Shown: piece after piece, positions 7,783-13,332 of the stretch
How positions within the stretch are numbered: the first letter of the stretch is position 1
Layout of the letters: each line of letters opens with the position of its first letter
Source: Oscillospiraceae bacterium
Lineage (GTDB): Bacteria; Bacillota; Clostridia; Saccharofermentanales; Saccharofermentanaceae
Assembly (NCBI GenBank): GCA_902794115.1
Contig: CADBGD010000007.1
Location: forward strand, 1-34,365
DNA: 34,365 nucleotides
Direction of reading: 5' to 3'
Notes under the pieces: model-generated
Seen by the model: the letters and a program-made list of their open reading frames with translations, nothing else
What the model was told of the DNA's origin: nothing
Databases searched by the model: none
Position numbers and translations under genes: made by a program

Positions 7783-8702
7783 ACTATAGAAGTGCCAATT
7801 CCTACTATAGAGAAGTGTTCGGAGACAAAGTCTACCGGATCGCGCTGGATGCGGGATGCACCTGCCCGAACCGGGACGGGACAAAGGGCACAAGAGGGTG
7901 CATTTTCTGCAGCGGTCTGGGTTCAGGTGAATTTGCCGCAGACCGGAACCTGAGCATATCGGAGCAGCTTTCCCAGGCAAAAGAAAAAGTCAGGAAAAAG
8001 ACGGATTCACACTTATACATTGCCTATTTCCAGAACTTTTCCAATACTTACGGAGATGAGGACGTGCTTTCGAAAAAGTACGAAGAAGCCCTTTCAGATC
8101 CGGAGGTGGTGGGTCTTGCGATCGCGACCCGTCCGGATGTGATCTCGGAAAAGATGTACAAGATCCTTTCAGATCTTTCGGAAAAGACACATGTGTGGAT
8201 CGAACTGGGTCTTCAGACGATCCATGAAGATACGGCGAAATGGATGAGAAGGGGATATGCTCTTTCGGTTTTCGAGGAGACGATCCGAAGATTAAAGATG
8301 ATCCCGAAACTTCAGGTGATCGTCCATGTGATCATGGACTTTCCCTGCGAGACGAAAAAACAGATGCTGGAGACGATCGATTACTGTGCCCGTCTTCCTA
8401 TCCACGGAATCAAGATCGCAAACTTAAATATCCTTCGTGGTACAGACCTGGGAACAGCATACGAGAAAGAGCCTTTTCCTCTTATGGAAAGGGATGAATA
8501 TATTGCCTTTATCGGAGAGATACTGCCACGCCTTTCTCCAGAAATGGTAGTGTACAGATTGACCGGGGACGGGGCAAAGAGAGATCTTCTGGCTCCTTTA
8601 TGGGTTTCTGACAAACGTCGGACAAGAAATGAGCTCGAAGGATATCTTCGAGCTCATCAGATCCGACAGGGGAGTGCTTTTTCCGGAGAAAACTCTTACT
8701 GA
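7779..8702 (+). CDS. TIGR01212/YhcC-type radical SAM protein
   Basis: A 307-residue radical SAM enzyme. The N terminus has SANSYYREVFG and the iron-sulfur binding pattern with Cys29, Cys41 and Cys44 (CPNRDG...GGCIFC-type, here RGCIFC). GLAIATRPDV, WIELGLQTIHEDT and HGIKIANLNILRGT are typical of the YhcC family. Its reaction is not established in the family. It starts with GTG at 7779, four bases into the end of dinB, with GGAGG just upstream, so it is the second gene of the probable SOS operon. Its 3' end overlaps by seven bases the 3' end of the convergent ABC permease gene. A 12-bp inverted repeat lies inside the last codons. Confidence 0.88.
   Translation: MNYRSANSYYREVFGDKVYRIALDAGCTCPNRDGTKGTRGCIFCSGLGSGEFAADRNLSISEQLSQAKEKVRKKTDSHLYIAYFQNFSNTYGDEDVLSKKYEEALSDPEVVGLAIATRPDVISEKMYKILSDLSEKTHVWIELGLQTIHEDTAKWMRRGYALSVFEETIRRLKMIPKLQVIVHVIMDFPCETKKQMLETIDYCARLPIHGIKIANLNILRGTDLGTAYEKEPFPLMERDEYIAFIGEILPRLSPEMVVYRLTGDGAKRDLLAPLWVSDKRRTRNELEGYLRAHQIRQGSAFSGENSY
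8629..8657. repeat. Perfect 12-bp inverted repeat at a convergent gene junction
   Basis: ATGAGCTCGAAG (8629-8640) and CTTCGAGCTCAT (8646-8657) form a perfect stem with a 5-nt loop. It lies inside the 3' end of the radical SAM gene, about 40 bases before the stop codons of two convergent genes. There is no U run on either side, so it is not a standard intrinsic terminator, but it may act as a 3' barrier or pause. Confidence 0.7.
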
Positions 8703-10276
8703 ATATCTTTTCGGACGAATCCGTCATACGCGATGAAAAGAAGTACAAAACTGAAGATCGCAAGATAGGTGACCGAGAATGACAGGGGAATGGAGTGCGG
8801 CATCTGGAAAGAGATGGTACCGCCTACGTCGCTGTTGAAACCGTTGAAACGCAGATAAGGGAAGATCTTATCTGTCAGGTACATGTTCGCCATAGGAAGA
8901 AAATCGATCCACCGTGAAGAGGAGAAGGCTTCAATGATCACCTGGGTGACGGTATTGCTCAATACAAGACCGGTGGATATGCCGACTGCGACACCGGTAT
9001 TTTTCGTGTTGCAGGAAATGGCATAGGCGACCAGCACATATACCAGAAGGGGAATGTTGCTTGCCAGGAAAAGAAGAAGGGCAAACAGCACATACGGAAT
9101 CGTGCGGACCTGACCGCCGGAAACAAAATAGTAGGGGGCCAGTGTGGAAAAACCGGATTTCAGCCCCATGCTGAGTGACGCACCCAAAGTGATCACGAGA
9201 CTTCCGGAGAATATCCAGGTGATGATCGCAAGAAGTTTGGCAAGAAAGATCTTCCATCTTTTTACCGGCGCGATGATCAGGGATTTAATGGAGCCGGTGG
9301 CCATTTCAGATGAAATACTGCTTCCGGCCAGAATGATGACCAGTAAAACAAGGAAGAATTGCGCTGTATTCATACCGAAAGAGATCGCAGATGCGCTGAT
9401 CGTTGTTGCACGTGAGGGATAGGTATGATCTGCGAATTGTTTTTCCAGGATCTTCACCGAGTTTTCCAGCTGTGCGCGACGTGCGGCGGTGAGAGGAATG
9501 TAGGAATCGGCACTGTCTCCCAGATCCACATTCATAGACAGCAACTGTTTATACCGGAGATAATCTGAGATCAGTTCCAGGAGATTACTCGATTCACTGC
9601 TGTCAAATGTACCTTGCGGATCGATTTCGGACAATATCCGGACGGCTTCTGTTTCAGTGAAACGTCCGTTGGCGATTCCGTCCATCTCGAGATATTTGAT
9701 GAAACTTTCGTAATCATGAGAGAAAAGAGCAGTACGTACATAATCCAGACGGTCACATTCTCTCGAATAATTCTGAAACCAGACGTTATCCCGCTGGTCG
9801 AAGGGGACTGAATTCAGATAGCACACATCGCGGAAAGTAATGATATATCCGATATAGGCAGAAGTAGAGAGAAAAGTGGACTCGATCGGATAGGCATCGA
9901 AATTATAGTTGATCAGGATCGAGTTGGCACAGGAGATCGTGCTGTATTTCGAAAGATCAGACTCATCGATGTTCAGATATGTGGCAAACAACTCAAATAC
10001 TTCGTTTTGAATGGTAAAACGGATCGTAGAGTGATCAACATATTGATTGGGGTCGCCAAGTTCCTCTCTGGCCGAATCCCGCATCTTGGTGATATCCGGT
10101 TTGGTTACGGCAGAAATGGCCGTTTCTTCGTAAAAGCGTTCGATATCCGCTACCCGGAGGAAAAAACGGGGACCAAGAAATGTTGTCAGGGCCATGCACA
10201 GCAAAAGGATCCAGACGGATATTCTTCTGGAGACTTTCGTCATTTCATTGATATAGAGTGCCAGTATTTTATTCAA
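8696..10276 (-). CDS. ABC-2 type transporter permease with large extracytoplasmic domain
   Basis: A 526-residue permease. TM1 lies at about residues 20-40 (WILLLCMALTTFLGP). A hydrophilic region of roughly 240 residues (45-290) probably faces outside. Five further helices follow from about residue 295 (FFLVLLVIILAGSSISSEMATGSIKSLIIAPVKRW; the GSIK.L...P..R stretch is the cytoplasmic coupling motif of ABC-2 permeases). The architecture matches BcrB/YhgE-like and gliding/export ABC-2 permeases. Its start overlaps the stop of the ATPase gene by eight bases, so both are produced together. Substrate unknown; peptide-antibiotic or lipid export is typical of the family. Confidence 0.82.
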   Translation of the reverse strand: MNKILALYINEMTKVSRRISVWILLLCMALTTFLGPRFFLRVADIERFYEETAISAVTKPDITKMRDSAREELGDPNQYVDHSTIRFTIQNEVFELFATYLNIDESDLSKYSTISCANSILINYNFDAYPIESTFLSTSAYIGYIITFRDVCYLNSVPFDQRDNVWFQNYSRECDRLDYVRTALFSHDYESFIKYLEMDGIANGRFTETEAVRILSEIDPQGTFDSSESSNLLELISDYLRYKQLLSMNVDLGDSADSYIPLTAARRAQLENSVKILEKQFADHTYPSRATTISASAISFGMNTAQFFLVLLVIILAGSSISSEMATGSIKSLIIAPVKRWKIFLAKLLAIITWIFSGSLVITLGASLSMGLKSGFSTLAPYYFVSGGQVRTIPYVLFALLLFLASNIPLLVYVLVAYAISCNTKNTGVAVGISTGLVLSNTVTQVIIEAFSSSRWIDFLPMANMYLTDKIFPYLRFNGFNSDVGGTISFQMPHSIPLSFSVTYLAIFSFVLLFIAYDGFVRKDIQ

Positions 10277-11210
10277 TGTCGATCCCTCCTCCGGTTATCT
10301 CCAGGAATGCCTCTTCCAGAGAAGATTCGATTTTCTGAACACCTAGAATATCCGAGCCTTTCTCAACCAGAAGACGGACACAGGCATTGATTTCGGACTC
10401 GTCGACTTCCACGTCCAATGTGTCGGAAGAAAGATTGCTGACGGGGTATTTGCTGTTTTCGGAAAGGATATCCTGCGCTCTTTTCGGATCGGATGTCTTG
10501 ATCCGGTAGGAGTTGGATTTCTTTGCCTGCTTCATCAGTTCTTCGGTCGTGCAGATCTGAAGTAGCTTTCCGTGATTGATGATGCCGATCCGGTCGCACA
10601 TCAGCTGCATTTCTCCGAGAAGGTGGGAGCTGACCATGACAGCTACACCGTCTTCATGGGCGCACCGCTTCAGGATGTCGCGAAGAAGATGAATGCCTGC
10701 CGGGTCAAGACCGTTGGTAGGCTCGTCCAGGATCAGGACTTTCGGGCGGTGGAGAAGGGCCTGGGCCAGGCCGATACGCTGCTTCATGCCAAGCGAATAT
10801 TTTTTCACGGCTTCGTCTGCGCGCTCGGTCAATCCGACCAGTTCCAGCACTTCGTCGATCCGTTCTTTGGTCACGCCATCATGAAGACGGGCATACATCT
10901 TCAGATTCAGTCTGGCAGACAGATTATTGTACATTTCCGGATTCTCCACGATTCCGCCTATAGAGGCCATTGCCTTCTCGTAGTCGGTATGACGGTTATA
11001 TCCGTTAATAATGATCGTGCCCTCATCCGGACGGACAAAGCCCATGATCATCTTAATGATCGTGGTCTTGCCGGCGCCGTTCGGACCTAAAAATCCGAAT
11101 ACTTCTCCCGGATAAAGATCAAAGGAAACGTGATCCACGGCTACTTTTGAACCGAAGGTTTTTGTCGTACCGGTGATAGATAAAGCCGGTTCGGATTTCG
11201 AATCTGACAT
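10269..11210 (-). CDS. ABC transporter ATP-binding protein (BcrA/CcmA-like)
   Basis: A 313-residue ATPase. It has Walker A GPNGAGKT (42-49), the Q-loop region GGIVENPEMYNNLSARLNL, the signature SLGMKQR, Walker B LILDEPTNGLDP and the H-loop VSSHLL. After about residue 215 there is a C-terminal accessory domain of the type seen in bacitracin-type ABC ATPases. The ATG at 11210 is chosen because AAGGAG lies eight bases upstream; a longer frame to 11258 would overlap the upstream gene. It is the energy subunit for the permease encoded right after it. Confidence 0.92.
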   Translation of the reverse strand: MSDSKSEPALSITGTTKTFGSKVAVDHVSFDLYPGEVFGFLGPNGAGKTTIIKMIMGFVRPDEGTIIINGYNRHTDYEKAMASIGGIVENPEMYNNLSARLNLKMYARLHDGVTKERIDEVLELVGLTERADEAVKKYSLGMKQRIGLAQALLHRPKVLILDEPTNGLDPAGIHLLRDILKRCAHEDGVAVMVSSHLLGEMQLMCDRIGIINHGKLLQICTTEELMKQAKKSNSYRIKTSDPKRAQDILSENSKYPVSNLSSDTLDVEVDESEINACVRLLVEKGSDILGVQKIESSLEEAFLEITGGGIDIE

Positions 11211-11226
11211 ACCACGATCTCCTTTC

Positions 11227-11796
11227 TTACACAAATTCATTGAGACTTGAATTGACATTTACGATCTTCCAGCTTCCGTCGATGTAAAGGAGCTGGATAA
11301 TATCCTGCGTAGGATAATCCTCAGCGGAAATAGTATTGTCTTTGTCTCTGAATTCGAATGTGGTCATGGAATACACTCTTACCGTGGCCGTATCCATATA
11401 GCACTCTTCGATCTGTATTTCTTCGACAGTACGTGTGCAGGTGATCGGACAGTGTTCATCATTCAGTGCATTTTCGTAAAAAGTGAGATTCTTTCTCACC
11501 AGCTCTTTACGGATCGCTTCATTATTTTCAATATACTGGAAGACCGGGCTGGCGCTTTCGTAAAGGACATTCATTATTTCATCGCTATTCCCGTTCATGA
11601 TCGAAATGAACTCGTCGGGCTTGGGGAAAACATACATGGCAGAGGATTGGTTTATATAATTTGACGCCAGATCATGCAGGGAGGCTTTTTTCTTAGACTG
11701 CTCAGAAGAATAGATGGCAAGATATATTGCGACGGCAATTACCAGAATACCCAGTAAAACAATGCCGCGATTGACATTGCGCAACCATTTTTTCAT
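11227..11796 (-). CDS. Membrane-anchored extracytoplasmic protein of the ABC operon
   Basis: A 189-residue protein I do not recognise. Residues 12-29 (GIVLLGILVIAVAIYLAIY) form an N-terminal anchor, and the rest is a soluble domain outside the cell. The order of helices (residues 38-110) followed by strands ending in IIQLLYIDGSWKIVNV suggests an NTF2-like or cone-shaped fold, in which a final 'dGsWKI' strand is typical; this is inference. Two cysteines in HCPITCTR could form a disulfide. It is the first gene of the operon with the ABC ATPase (16-base gap) and permease, so it may be a substrate-binding or immunity-type accessory protein. Confidence 0.6.
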   Translation of the reverse strand: MKKWLRNVNRGIVLLGILVIAVAIYLAIYSSEQSKKKASLHDLASNYINQSSAMYVFPKPDEFISIMNGNSDEIMNVLYESASPVFQYIENNEAIRKELVRKNLTFYENALNDEHCPITCTRTVEEIQIEECYMDTATVRVYSMTTFEFRDKDNTISAEDYPTQDIIQLLYIDGSWKIVNVNSSLNEFV

Positions 11797-11867
11797 GCCT
11801 ACTACCCCAATTCTTCGAATGTTAAATCTATTTTAGCAGAACACGGGAACACATAGGGTGACAATCT

Positions 11868-11880
11868 TGTAACAGTTACA
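11868..11880. promoter_or_regulatory. 13-bp palindrome upstream of the ABC operon
   Basis: TGTAAC-A-GTTACA is a perfect inverted repeat with a 1-bp centre, located 72 bp upstream of the start of the ABC operon. It shares the TGTAAC core with the repeats at 12021-12049 and is a candidate operator. A TAAAAT-like -10 lies between it and the gene. Confidence 0.4.
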
Positions 11881-12020
11881 TATTACAGATTTGTAAACAT
11901 TTTTTGCCCAGGATTTGACTTGGAGAGAAGAATGCGGGAAAAAGTGGGAAGGGGAAAGAAAAACTGAAATGTCAGAAAATGCCCGAATTTCAGCGTCTTG
12001 AAACTTCTTCGAAAAGAACG

Positions 12021-12049
12021 TGTAACATAAGCGTAACGTTTTGTGTAAT
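12021..12049. promoter_or_regulatory. Spaced TGTAAC-type direct repeats
   Basis: TGTAAC (12021), CGTAAC (12032) and TGTAAT (12044) are spaced 11 and 12 bp apart, one helical turn each, which is the spacing of tandem sites used by OmpR/PhoB-type regulators. They lie 47 bp upstream of the -35 of the large RNA and also in the divergent region of the ABC operon. Confidence 0.35.
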
Positions 12050-12095
12050 ATGCACAAAGGTGTGTTCGTGTTCGCGAATTTCGTTTGTAAAAATG

Positions 12096-12123
12096 TTGAC
12101 AAACTTCTTGACCGTGCTATACT
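12096..12123 (+). promoter_or_regulatory. Promoter of the large non-coding RNA
   Basis: TTGACA (12096-12101) and TATACT (12118-12123) are 16 bp apart. The predicted start point is A12130, which is exactly the first base of the helix that closes the RNA. This is one of the best promoters in the window. Confidence 0.8.
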
Positions 12124-12129
12124 GAAACT

Positions 12130-12784
12130 AGCTCCAGGGAATGCGGGTTCACACCAAGTCCTACACGGAGAGCCGCCACAAGTGGAAACACGAGGCGAGG
12201 CTGAAAAAAACAGAAAGACCAGAAAGTGGTCCGGAAACGAAAATGGAAAGCGCCGGAGATCCGATCCCGTGAGGTTGGATAGAGCGAAGGAAGTTGGAGC
12301 CGTCAGAGCCATAGTTGAAGCAAGTGGAGAGCGGACAGCGATTGACGGTACGCGATGGCGGACACAAATCGCAGGTCAGGTTTAAGACCTTGATCCACAT
12401 ACATCCGGACAGGCTGATAATCGCGGTCGGATGGGGATCACGAGAAATGACAGGAGACGGGCTGGAACTGAGTAGGTTTCATAAACTGATCCAGATAAGG
12501 AGTTCGGGCATAGGGCCGGGACCGGAGACATCGGATCAGAAAGGTTACGGAAAAGACGCCTCGGAGACGACATCATTTCGGGAACGGGCTGGTTGGAAAG
12601 GCAGACTGCTACGTCAGGTGCTGAGTAATTCCACGGTGAGGGTCGATGGACAGGATTGGAGAAGGTCCGTAGATAATAAAGGGCGACCGGGGAATTGGAT
12701 GGAAAGTTGGTTCGCTGGAGCTATTATTTGTCCTCATACATTTATAAAAACGGAGACCTATGACACCTCGGGTCTCCTTTTTTT
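12130..12784 (+). ncRNA. Large structured non-coding RNA, about 650 nt, class not assigned
   Basis: A consensus promoter and a strong terminator frame a purine-rich, non-coding transcript. The first eight bases, AGCTCCAG (12130-12137), pair perfectly with CTGGAGCT (12715-12722), closing a domain of about 593 nt. Nested or hairpin helices visible inside include 12171-12177 with 12194-12202 (2-nt bulge), 12217-12221/12227-12231, 12300-12305/12343-12348, 12352-12356/12368-12372, 12373-12377/12386-12390, 12391-12396/12435-12440 around 12402-12407/12428-12433, 12486-12492/12533-12539, and 12627-12632/12691-12696 around 12641-12645/12684-12688 and 12646-12651/12665-12670. Size, end-closing helix and many short helices resemble the large ornate RNA classes such as ROOL, OLE or GOLLD; ROOL (about 580 nt, Firmicutes) is my best guess. 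RNase P RNA, tmRNA and SRP RNA signatures are absent, and no OLE-associated membrane protein gene is next to it. Confidence 0.85.
12752..12784 (+). terminator. Bidirectional terminator after the large RNA and hpt
   Basis: GGAGACC (12752-12758) pairs with GGTCTCC (12771-12777) and is followed by seven T residues on the plus strand. On the minus strand the hairpin is followed by GTTTTTA, so it can also stop the hpt operon, which ends at 12802. Confidence 0.9.
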
Positions 12785-12801
12785 GTGCGAAAACAATCCG
12801 G

Positions 12802-13332
12802 TCAGTGATGTTCGATCTCGGCAATAAAGGGGAGGTTCCGTCCGATTTCGCCATTATCCATGCCGTAGCCGATCAGCCAGCTCCGGTCCACCTCAAAGCC
12901 GTAATACTTTACCGGAAGATCGATCAGTTGCCGGTCCGGATTATAAAGAAGCGTGCACACTTCTAATGACGCCGGTTTTCTCGTTTCCAAAGTCTGGAGA
13001 AGATAAGCGGTCGTAAGACCTGTGCGGATGATGTCTTCGACAACGATCACGTGCTTTCCTGTGATGTCGATATCCACGTCTTTGGTAATCCGCACGATCC
13101 CGGTGGCACGGGTGGTGTCCGGGATGCTGCTGATGCCGATCATGTCTACCATTACGGGCATTTTTGTGGCACGGGCAAGATCGGTCAGAAAGAAAAGAGA
13201 ACCTTTCAGTACACCCAGAAGGAGAAGATCCTGTCCCTCGTAATCATGTGCGAGGGTCTCGCCCAGTTCTTTTACACGGTTCTGCAGCTGCTCCTCGGTG
13301 AAAAGTATCTTTTTGTAGGATATCTCTTTCAT
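12802..13332 (-). CDS. hpt: Hypoxanthine phosphoribosyltransferase with an altered active-site loop
   Basis: A 176-residue type I phosphoribosyltransferase of normal length that makes IMP/GMP from hypoxanthine/guanine and PRPP. Family marks are LLLLGVLKGSLFFLTDLAR (PPi loop), DMIGISS, VVEDII.TGLT (PRPP loop) and VKYYGFEVDRSWLIGYGMD (base-binding). The PRPP loop reads EDIIRTGLT: Arg103 stands where most HPRTs have the catalytic-base aspartate (EDIIDTG/EDIIDSG). The codon CGC was checked on the minus strand, at 13024-13026. The end also departs from the usual GYGLDYxExYRNLPYI (here GYGMDNGEIGRNLPFI). GGAGGT precedes the start. Third gene of an operon, 12 bases after the kinase-like fusion. Function as HPRT is likely but not certain given the Arg. 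Confidence 0.85.
   Translation of the reverse strand: MKEISYKKILFTEEQLQNRVKELGETLAHDYEGQDLLLLGVLKGSLFFLTDLARATKMPVMVDMIGISSIPDTTRATGIVRITKDVDIDITGKHVIVVEDIIRTGLTTAYLLQTLETRKPASLEVCTLLYNPDRQLIDLPVKYYGFEVDRSWLIGYGMDNGEIGRNLPFIAEIEHH

Follow-up and report, generated by a model that had tools for sequence, protein, structure and literature searches.

A conserved structured RNA gene of a putative new family next to hpt in the order Saccharofermentanales

The window, the whole 34,365-nucleotide stretch of DNA from an Oscillospiraceae bacterium (family Saccharofermentanaceae, order Saccharofermentanales) that was analysed here, contains on its plus strand, at positions 12130-12722, what appears to be a stand-alone gene for a structured non-coding RNA, with a terminator that extends to position 12784. 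Divergent from the RNA lie a gene for a 189-amino-acid protein and an ABC operon (8696-11796). On the other side the RNA is flanked by hpt, which lies on the minus strand and converges with it; the initial annotation had described a divergent hpt operon, and this direction was wrong relative to the RNA. According to Pfam, the neighbours in the window comprise Pribosyltran, Cytidylate_kin2, ABC and ABC-2 proteins, and three scanned proteins had no Pfam match. The 189-amino-acid protein (11227-11796, minus strand), one without a Pfam match, has an N-terminal hydrophobic stretch and stands ahead of the ABC/ABC-2 operon. It is kept in place, at an identity of only 26-33% between species whose ABC protein is more than 75% identical. 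While tilS is the usual neighbour of hpt in Bacillota, a cytidylate-kinase-like gene (PF13189; 13345-14304, minus strand) precedes hpt in the window. The nearest tRNA genes are located 9 kb from the RNA. The features of the locus are the following:

12040-12058, strand not assigned: inverted repeat TTTGTGTAATATGCACAAA resembling an operator, located about 90 nt before the start of the RNA
12096-12101, plus strand: -35 hexamer TTGACA, conserved in homologs
12118-12123, plus strand: -10 hexamer TATACT with a TG extension at 12115-12116, conserved in homologs; start expected at about 12130
12130-12722, plus strand: predicted structured RNA body, from homologs and covariation
12130-12142, plus strand: 5' strand of helix P1 (AGCUCCAG.GAAU), pairing with 12710-12722
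12172-12174, plus strand: GCC of the conserved 5' block (..AGCCGCC), pairing with 12682-12684 (helix 5); GC is changed to AU in three sequences
12176-12327, plus strand: domain A, with the closing helix 12176-12181/12322-12327; in the short forms a short hairpin takes its place
12331-12336, plus strand: 5' strand of helix P6 (GCGGAC), long-range pairing with 12665-12670, 100% paired in the genus
12338-12372, plus strand: hairpin P4, GCGAUUGACGGUACGCGAUGGCGGACACAAAUCGC, the most conserved element, with order-wide covariation
12374-12657, plus strand: domain B, size-variable, with multiple helices (helices 15-24), mostly absent in the short forms
12665-12684, plus strand: conserved 3' block, which holds the P6 3' strand (12665-12670) and GGC (12682-12684)
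12709-12722, plus strand: 3' strand of P1, GGUUCGCUGGAGCU; in short forms it doubles as the terminator hairpin GGUUC-GCUG-GAGCC followed by Us; weak as such in the window
12752-12784, plus strand: intrinsic terminator (GGAGACC...GGTCTCC, T7), hairpin z = -3.3
12802-13332, minus strand: hpt (phosphoribosyltransferase, PF00156), convergent conserved neighbour outside the RNA

In agreement with the initial annotation, which had assigned to the RNA a promoter and a strong terminator of its own, both elements are found. The promoter, TTGACA-16 nt-TATACT with the extended TG, matches 11 of 12 consensus positions, and a comparable promoter lies at a constant distance from the RNA start in the homologs read. 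Nearly every form combines such a sigma-A-type promoter with the common ends GCUCCAGGGAAU...GGUUCGCUGGAGC, the two closing strands of a long-range helix. The terminator at 12752-12784 is omitted by a mechanical terminator scan, probably owing to the loop rule of that scan.

No reading frame is conserved across the homologs of the RNA region, including the stretch 12130-12750 for which a conserved protein frame would have spoken against an RNA. The plus-strand ORF at 12315-12827 is interrupted by 3-10 stops in each homolog. In many homologs the minus-strand ORF at 11833-12312 is free of stops where it overlaps the RNA, yet 78 of 82 alignment gaps have lengths that are not divisible by three, and third positions are not favoured by substitutions (0.19/0.17/0.22 at the three codon positions); its openness simply results from a stop-poor strand. 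A role as a leader was also rejected, since hpt is convergent on the opposite strand in most copies and no gene for control in cis is left; in 50 units hpt is the next downstream gene, on the opposite strand, 12-260 nt past the RNA.

When 59 related genomes were searched at the DNA level, a homolog was found in 23 of the 23 genomes of the genus, with 72-98% identity over the matched parts, and conserved blocks of the RNA in two further genera. Three of the loci (L020-L022) lack roughly 185 nt of the interior. With a covariance model built on the 62-nt core (R1), divergent copies were detected in further genera and families of the order. Another model, derived from the 5' half of the short forms (R2), matched 127 of 188 Saccharofermentanales genomes at E-values up to 0.1, of which not all weak matches were confirmed. 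Divergent forms of 255-625 nt hence occur throughout the order, and most of the named relatives are genomes from rumen or gut. As the models, of 62 and 107 positions, are short and will miss distant members, this distribution is bounded from below. Outside the order, a case counted as confirmed when the two terminal motifs were present with correct succession and spacing; single cases were confirmed in this way in G199, G285 and G341, which belong to the same class, and in G841, which belongs to another. The distribution beyond the order, as judged from these motifs, is thus sparse but real. Most weak model matches outside the order were spurious: L138, L140-L144 and L160/L177 have no terminal motif, and several lie in reading frames. 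No match to the RNA was found by DNA search in 50,697 phage records or in the plasmid records. One phage-like IMG/VR contig (L231, 4642-4739) carries the middle of the RNA in its last roughly 100-130 bases, with neither promoter nor 5' end; as this partial copy sits at the very end of the contig, it was not accepted as a viral copy and was taken as a probable assembly chimera.

Tandem copies occur in four genomes (G040, G179, G043 and G057), with own promoters and ends in the copies read, so that the same unit borders are marked independently. The tandem loci noted outside the genus, in several genomes of the order, are L178, L179, L184 and L185/L186, with separate promoters where both were readable.

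The ends of the RNA were compared over 81 distinct units of 255-625 nt, which were identified by their terminal motifs; the forms begin with a sequence like [N][N][C/U]UCCA[G/A]GGAAUAC and finish with one like GGUUCG[C/U]UGGAG. Standard pairs occupy 631 of the 648 cells of P1. Because the collection pattern fixes part of the ends, the evidence for this helix lies in its varying pairs and not in the total: compensated changes are present at pair 1 (A-U, G-C, C-G), pair 2 (G-C, A-U), pair 3 (C-G, U-A) and pair 8 (G-C, A-U). The eight-base terminal helix that had been proposed between 12130-12137 and 12715-12722 is therefore present and covaries at four pairs.

For the interior of the molecule, 17 sequences of the genus yielded a consensus structure of 123 pairs, in which 96.8% of the paired cells are standard and 32 pairs are doubly changed, compared with 18.2 in shuffled alignments. 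None of 500 shuffles reached any of the five measures of covariation, and when the structure was slid by 1-3 columns, pairing fell to 25-49%. This covariation argues decisively for a structured RNA. Among 14 short forms from across the order, P3 and P4 pair in 90% of the cells and show ten doubly changed pairs, which was reached in 0-1 of 500 shuffles; P3, a hairpin near the 5' third that corresponds to domain A in the genus, contributes double changes at three pairs. The core of the RNA consists of P3 (or domain A), the near-invariant P4 and the long-range P6, while domain B varies in size, being large in genus members and in forms of 550-625 nt and short elsewhere. P6 reads GCGGAC/GUCCGU in the window and GCGAAC/GUUCGC, GCGAAU/AUUCGC, GCGAAA/UUUCGC or ACGAGC/GCUCGU in other copies; for this comparison across genera clear cases alone are cited, as a loose search pattern missed or misplaced some sequences.

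The helices thus covary in related genomes, within the genus, order-wide at P3 and P4, and at P1, as the initial annotation had expected. A further helix of that annotation, 12486-12492/12533-12539, stood in part: depending on the position, 9 to 17 of the 17 sequences pair, and the helix is left out of the consensus fold. A pairing between 12302-12307 and 12344-12349 (CCGUCA/UGACGG) was dropped, since it is broken in several genus members of the alignment. Folding energy is weak evidence for this RNA (z = -1.1; 3 of 20 shuffles fold equally well). As the RNA folded alone is hardly more stable than shuffled sequence, the case rests on comparison and covariation. On these grounds the large structured RNA proposed at 12130-12784 is confirmed, and it appears to be a conserved unit rather than chance sequence.

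The 3' end of the RNA may have two roles. In one short form (L106) the hairpin GGUUC-GCUG-GAGCC stands directly before a U run, with 8 pairs and z = -3.9. In short forms the hairpin of the P1 3' strand could hence be the terminator, in which case terminator and closing helix would be mutually exclusive; the hairpin would terminate transcription first, and the 5' end may then capture its 3' strand to give P1. The window form has a weak version of this hairpin, with a separate terminator downstream of it.

To place the RNA among known families, all 4,227 families of Rfam 15 were used to scan positions 11950-12850 at E-values up to 10 and 14 divergent relatives at E-values up to 5. For the window region there was no credible match, with two chance matches that fall on the terminator only; the matches of the 14 relatives were due to chance, and the outlying loci gave none at the gathering cut-off. 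The RNA would therefore be a member of a previously undescribed family, and no description of it was found in the open-licence literature. The general kind, a large stand-alone structured RNA, is already known; the family itself is new. The suggestion that a large separate structured RNA of possibly new family lies here is supported by the homologs, the covariation and the result of the Rfam scan.

The known housekeeping RNAs of the genome offer no alternative identity. RNase P RNA (RF00010) has no match in the window region and its copy lies elsewhere in the genome (contig C73, 276 bits); the same holds for tmRNA (RF00023; contig C79, 165 bits), and ARAGORN finds no tmRNA in the window. 6S RNA (RF00013) is likewise stand-alone and of housekeeping type, but it is a long hairpin with one bubble, whereas the RNA described here is multi-branched with a conserved core, and no RF00013 match is found in the window region. 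A 6S-like candidate is located on another contig (C53, 12659-12843) and scores 36 bits, which falls short of the Rfam cut-off (46 bits); Rfam may represent the 6S RNA of this lineage poorly. With RNase P RNA, tmRNA and the 6S-like candidate all located elsewhere in the genome, the RNA does not replace a missing one of these.

The initial annotation had compared the architecture with ROOL, OLE and GOLLD. The likeness is a general one; the short forms of 255-275 nt are nearer to raiA/ModT in size and layout. ROOL, which was named for its rumen origin, and GOLLD are large ornate RNAs as well, the latter with variable domains. Neither ROOL (RF03087) nor GOLLD (RF01998) has an Rfam match to the RNA, and in contrast to ROOL, DNA searches gave no match to phages or plasmids, and in contrast to GOLLD no phage match. 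OLE (RF01071) shares with the RNA its occurrence in Bacillota, an ornate secondary structure and a length of about 600 nt, like the window form (in part after PMC12286853), but there is no OLE match at E-values up to 10 and no obvious OapA-type gene among the scanned neighbours, three of which lack a Pfam match. The exclusion of ROOL, OLE and GOLLD is made through the Rfam models alone. With raiA/ModT (RF03072) the RNA has in common that it is stand-alone, has a sigma-A-type promoter, P1-joined ends and a conserved core with variable peripheral stems, and is chromosomal and mainly found in Bacillota; raiA measures about 210 nt and the short forms about 255-275 nt. Unlike raiA/ModT, which lies near comFC or raiA, the RNA lies near hpt, its conserved motifs differ, and in the genus of the window it is more than twice the size of raiA. 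It thus resembles raiA/ModT and OLE in build, while the sequences are unrelated. The abundance of raiA/ModT rivals that of rRNA in exponential growth, and it acts in trans, with initial evidence for association with protein (PMC11706538).

Compared across these genomes, the RNA appears as a conserved, non-coding unit with its own promoter, a covarying fold and conservation at the level of the order, whose whole units are in several genomes duplicated in tandem with their own promoters, and which falls outside the known families. Its transcription, abundance, action in trans and protein partner are what we infer. Transcription would start at the extended -10, sigma-A-type promoter and stop at the intrinsic terminator. 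The 5' and 3' ends would pair as P1 and close the molecule, and P6, the second long-range helix, would present the near-invariant hairpin P4 beside the peripheral domains A and B. These domains grow or shrink between genera and would be decoration around a working core. The core of P1, P4 and P6 is the proposed working part, acting in trans with at least one protein. The best joint reading, which we consider somewhat favoured, is a stable and abundant trans-acting RNA of housekeeping type, probably associated with protein, in which this core does the work; abundance, action in trans and a protein partner are expected by analogy with raiA/ModT and OLE. Against this reading stands that no conserved gene for a dedicated protein lies beside the RNA: hpt is the sole recurrent neighbour found, and it is missing next to 21 units with sufficient flank.

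Several other explanations were weighed against this reading. That the locus is conserved spacer DNA or a gene remnant with no RNA function would agree with the unremarkable folding energy, but is hardly conceivable in view of the covariation, the compensated changes in P1 in separate lineages, the conserved promoter, the tandem units and the missing coding signature. It is also very improbable that the RNA is a strongly diverged raiA/ModT in the same role. In its favour, the two have the layout in common, and raiA was detected in 48 of 255 Clostridia (47 of them above the cut-off of the RF03072 model) and in none of the same-order genomes shown. Against it, the RF03072 model matches nothing in the order, the window's own genome included, and ten raiA loci read alongside (one of them, L220, out of register) share no conserved motif with the RNA; moreover, at a background of 19%, chance alone would leave 9 same-order genomes without raiA in about 15% of cases. 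Near-invariant cores in a variable periphery are also seen in large ribozymes, and the P4/P6 core could be the catalytic site of one. We regard a ribozyme as quite unlikely: no flanking substrate or exon junction is conserved, no known ribozyme family matches, and, as the RNA begins at its promoter and finishes at its terminator, nothing is evidently cut.

Self-assembly into an ordered RNA-only oligomer, as described for OLE (2 copies), ROOL (8) and GOLLD (14), appears unlikely as well. A large, ornate, stand-alone RNA with many helices has loops that could dock between copies, and three such RNAs do multimerise; in the same study raiA, the nearest in size to the short forms, was monomeric (PMC12286853). 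Moreover, most of the peripheral helices are missing from the short forms (255-275 nt), and matches to OLE, ROOL or GOLLD in Rfam, or to phages and plasmids, are absent. We judge it similarly doubtful that the RNA serves hpt or purine salvage, for instance as a sponge or sensor RNA, and is kept adjacent for this reason. In 50 units from several genera, hpt is the adjacent gene and converges on the RNA. Outside the order it is convergent in G199, while in G285 and G341 it is found upstream of the RNA at a distance of up to about 1.5 kb, on the opposite strand; gene order is seldom kept over such a distance. The convergent orientation, however, provides no leader, hpt is absent downstream of 21 units for which at least 700 bases of flank are available, and the synteny may be inherited. 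The recurrence of this neighbourhood in more than one order is the strongest hint to function.

A further-reaching version of the favoured trans-acting housekeeping RNA would be a new class of large RNA with an activity of its own, as a ribozyme, an RNA-only assembly or a core ribonucleoprotein, that spans beyond one class of Bacillota and is retained beside hpt through purine nucleotide economy or stringent control. We consider this rather unlikely; if both the own activity and the link to hpt were true, it would be a bacterial housekeeping RNA new to science. RNA classes of comparable size and conservation are few, and OLE, ROOL, GOLLD and raiA have yielded unexpected biology. The RNA is universal in the sampled genus, spreads through an order that is common in rumen and gut, and reaches four genomes beyond it. 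Its natural short forms of about 255-275 nt suit structural work, and an alignment, a covarying structure and searchable models now exist.

Upstream of the RNA, the inverted repeat TTTGTGYANNRTGCACAAA is perfectly matched at 12040-12058, where 0.02 occurrences would be expected by chance in the window. Most genus members and members of some other genera carry it in a similar place. With up to two mismatches allowed, so that some occurrences are possibly due to chance, it is present in 37 of 60 upstream regions. Its position suggests a putative operator for a DNA-binding protein.
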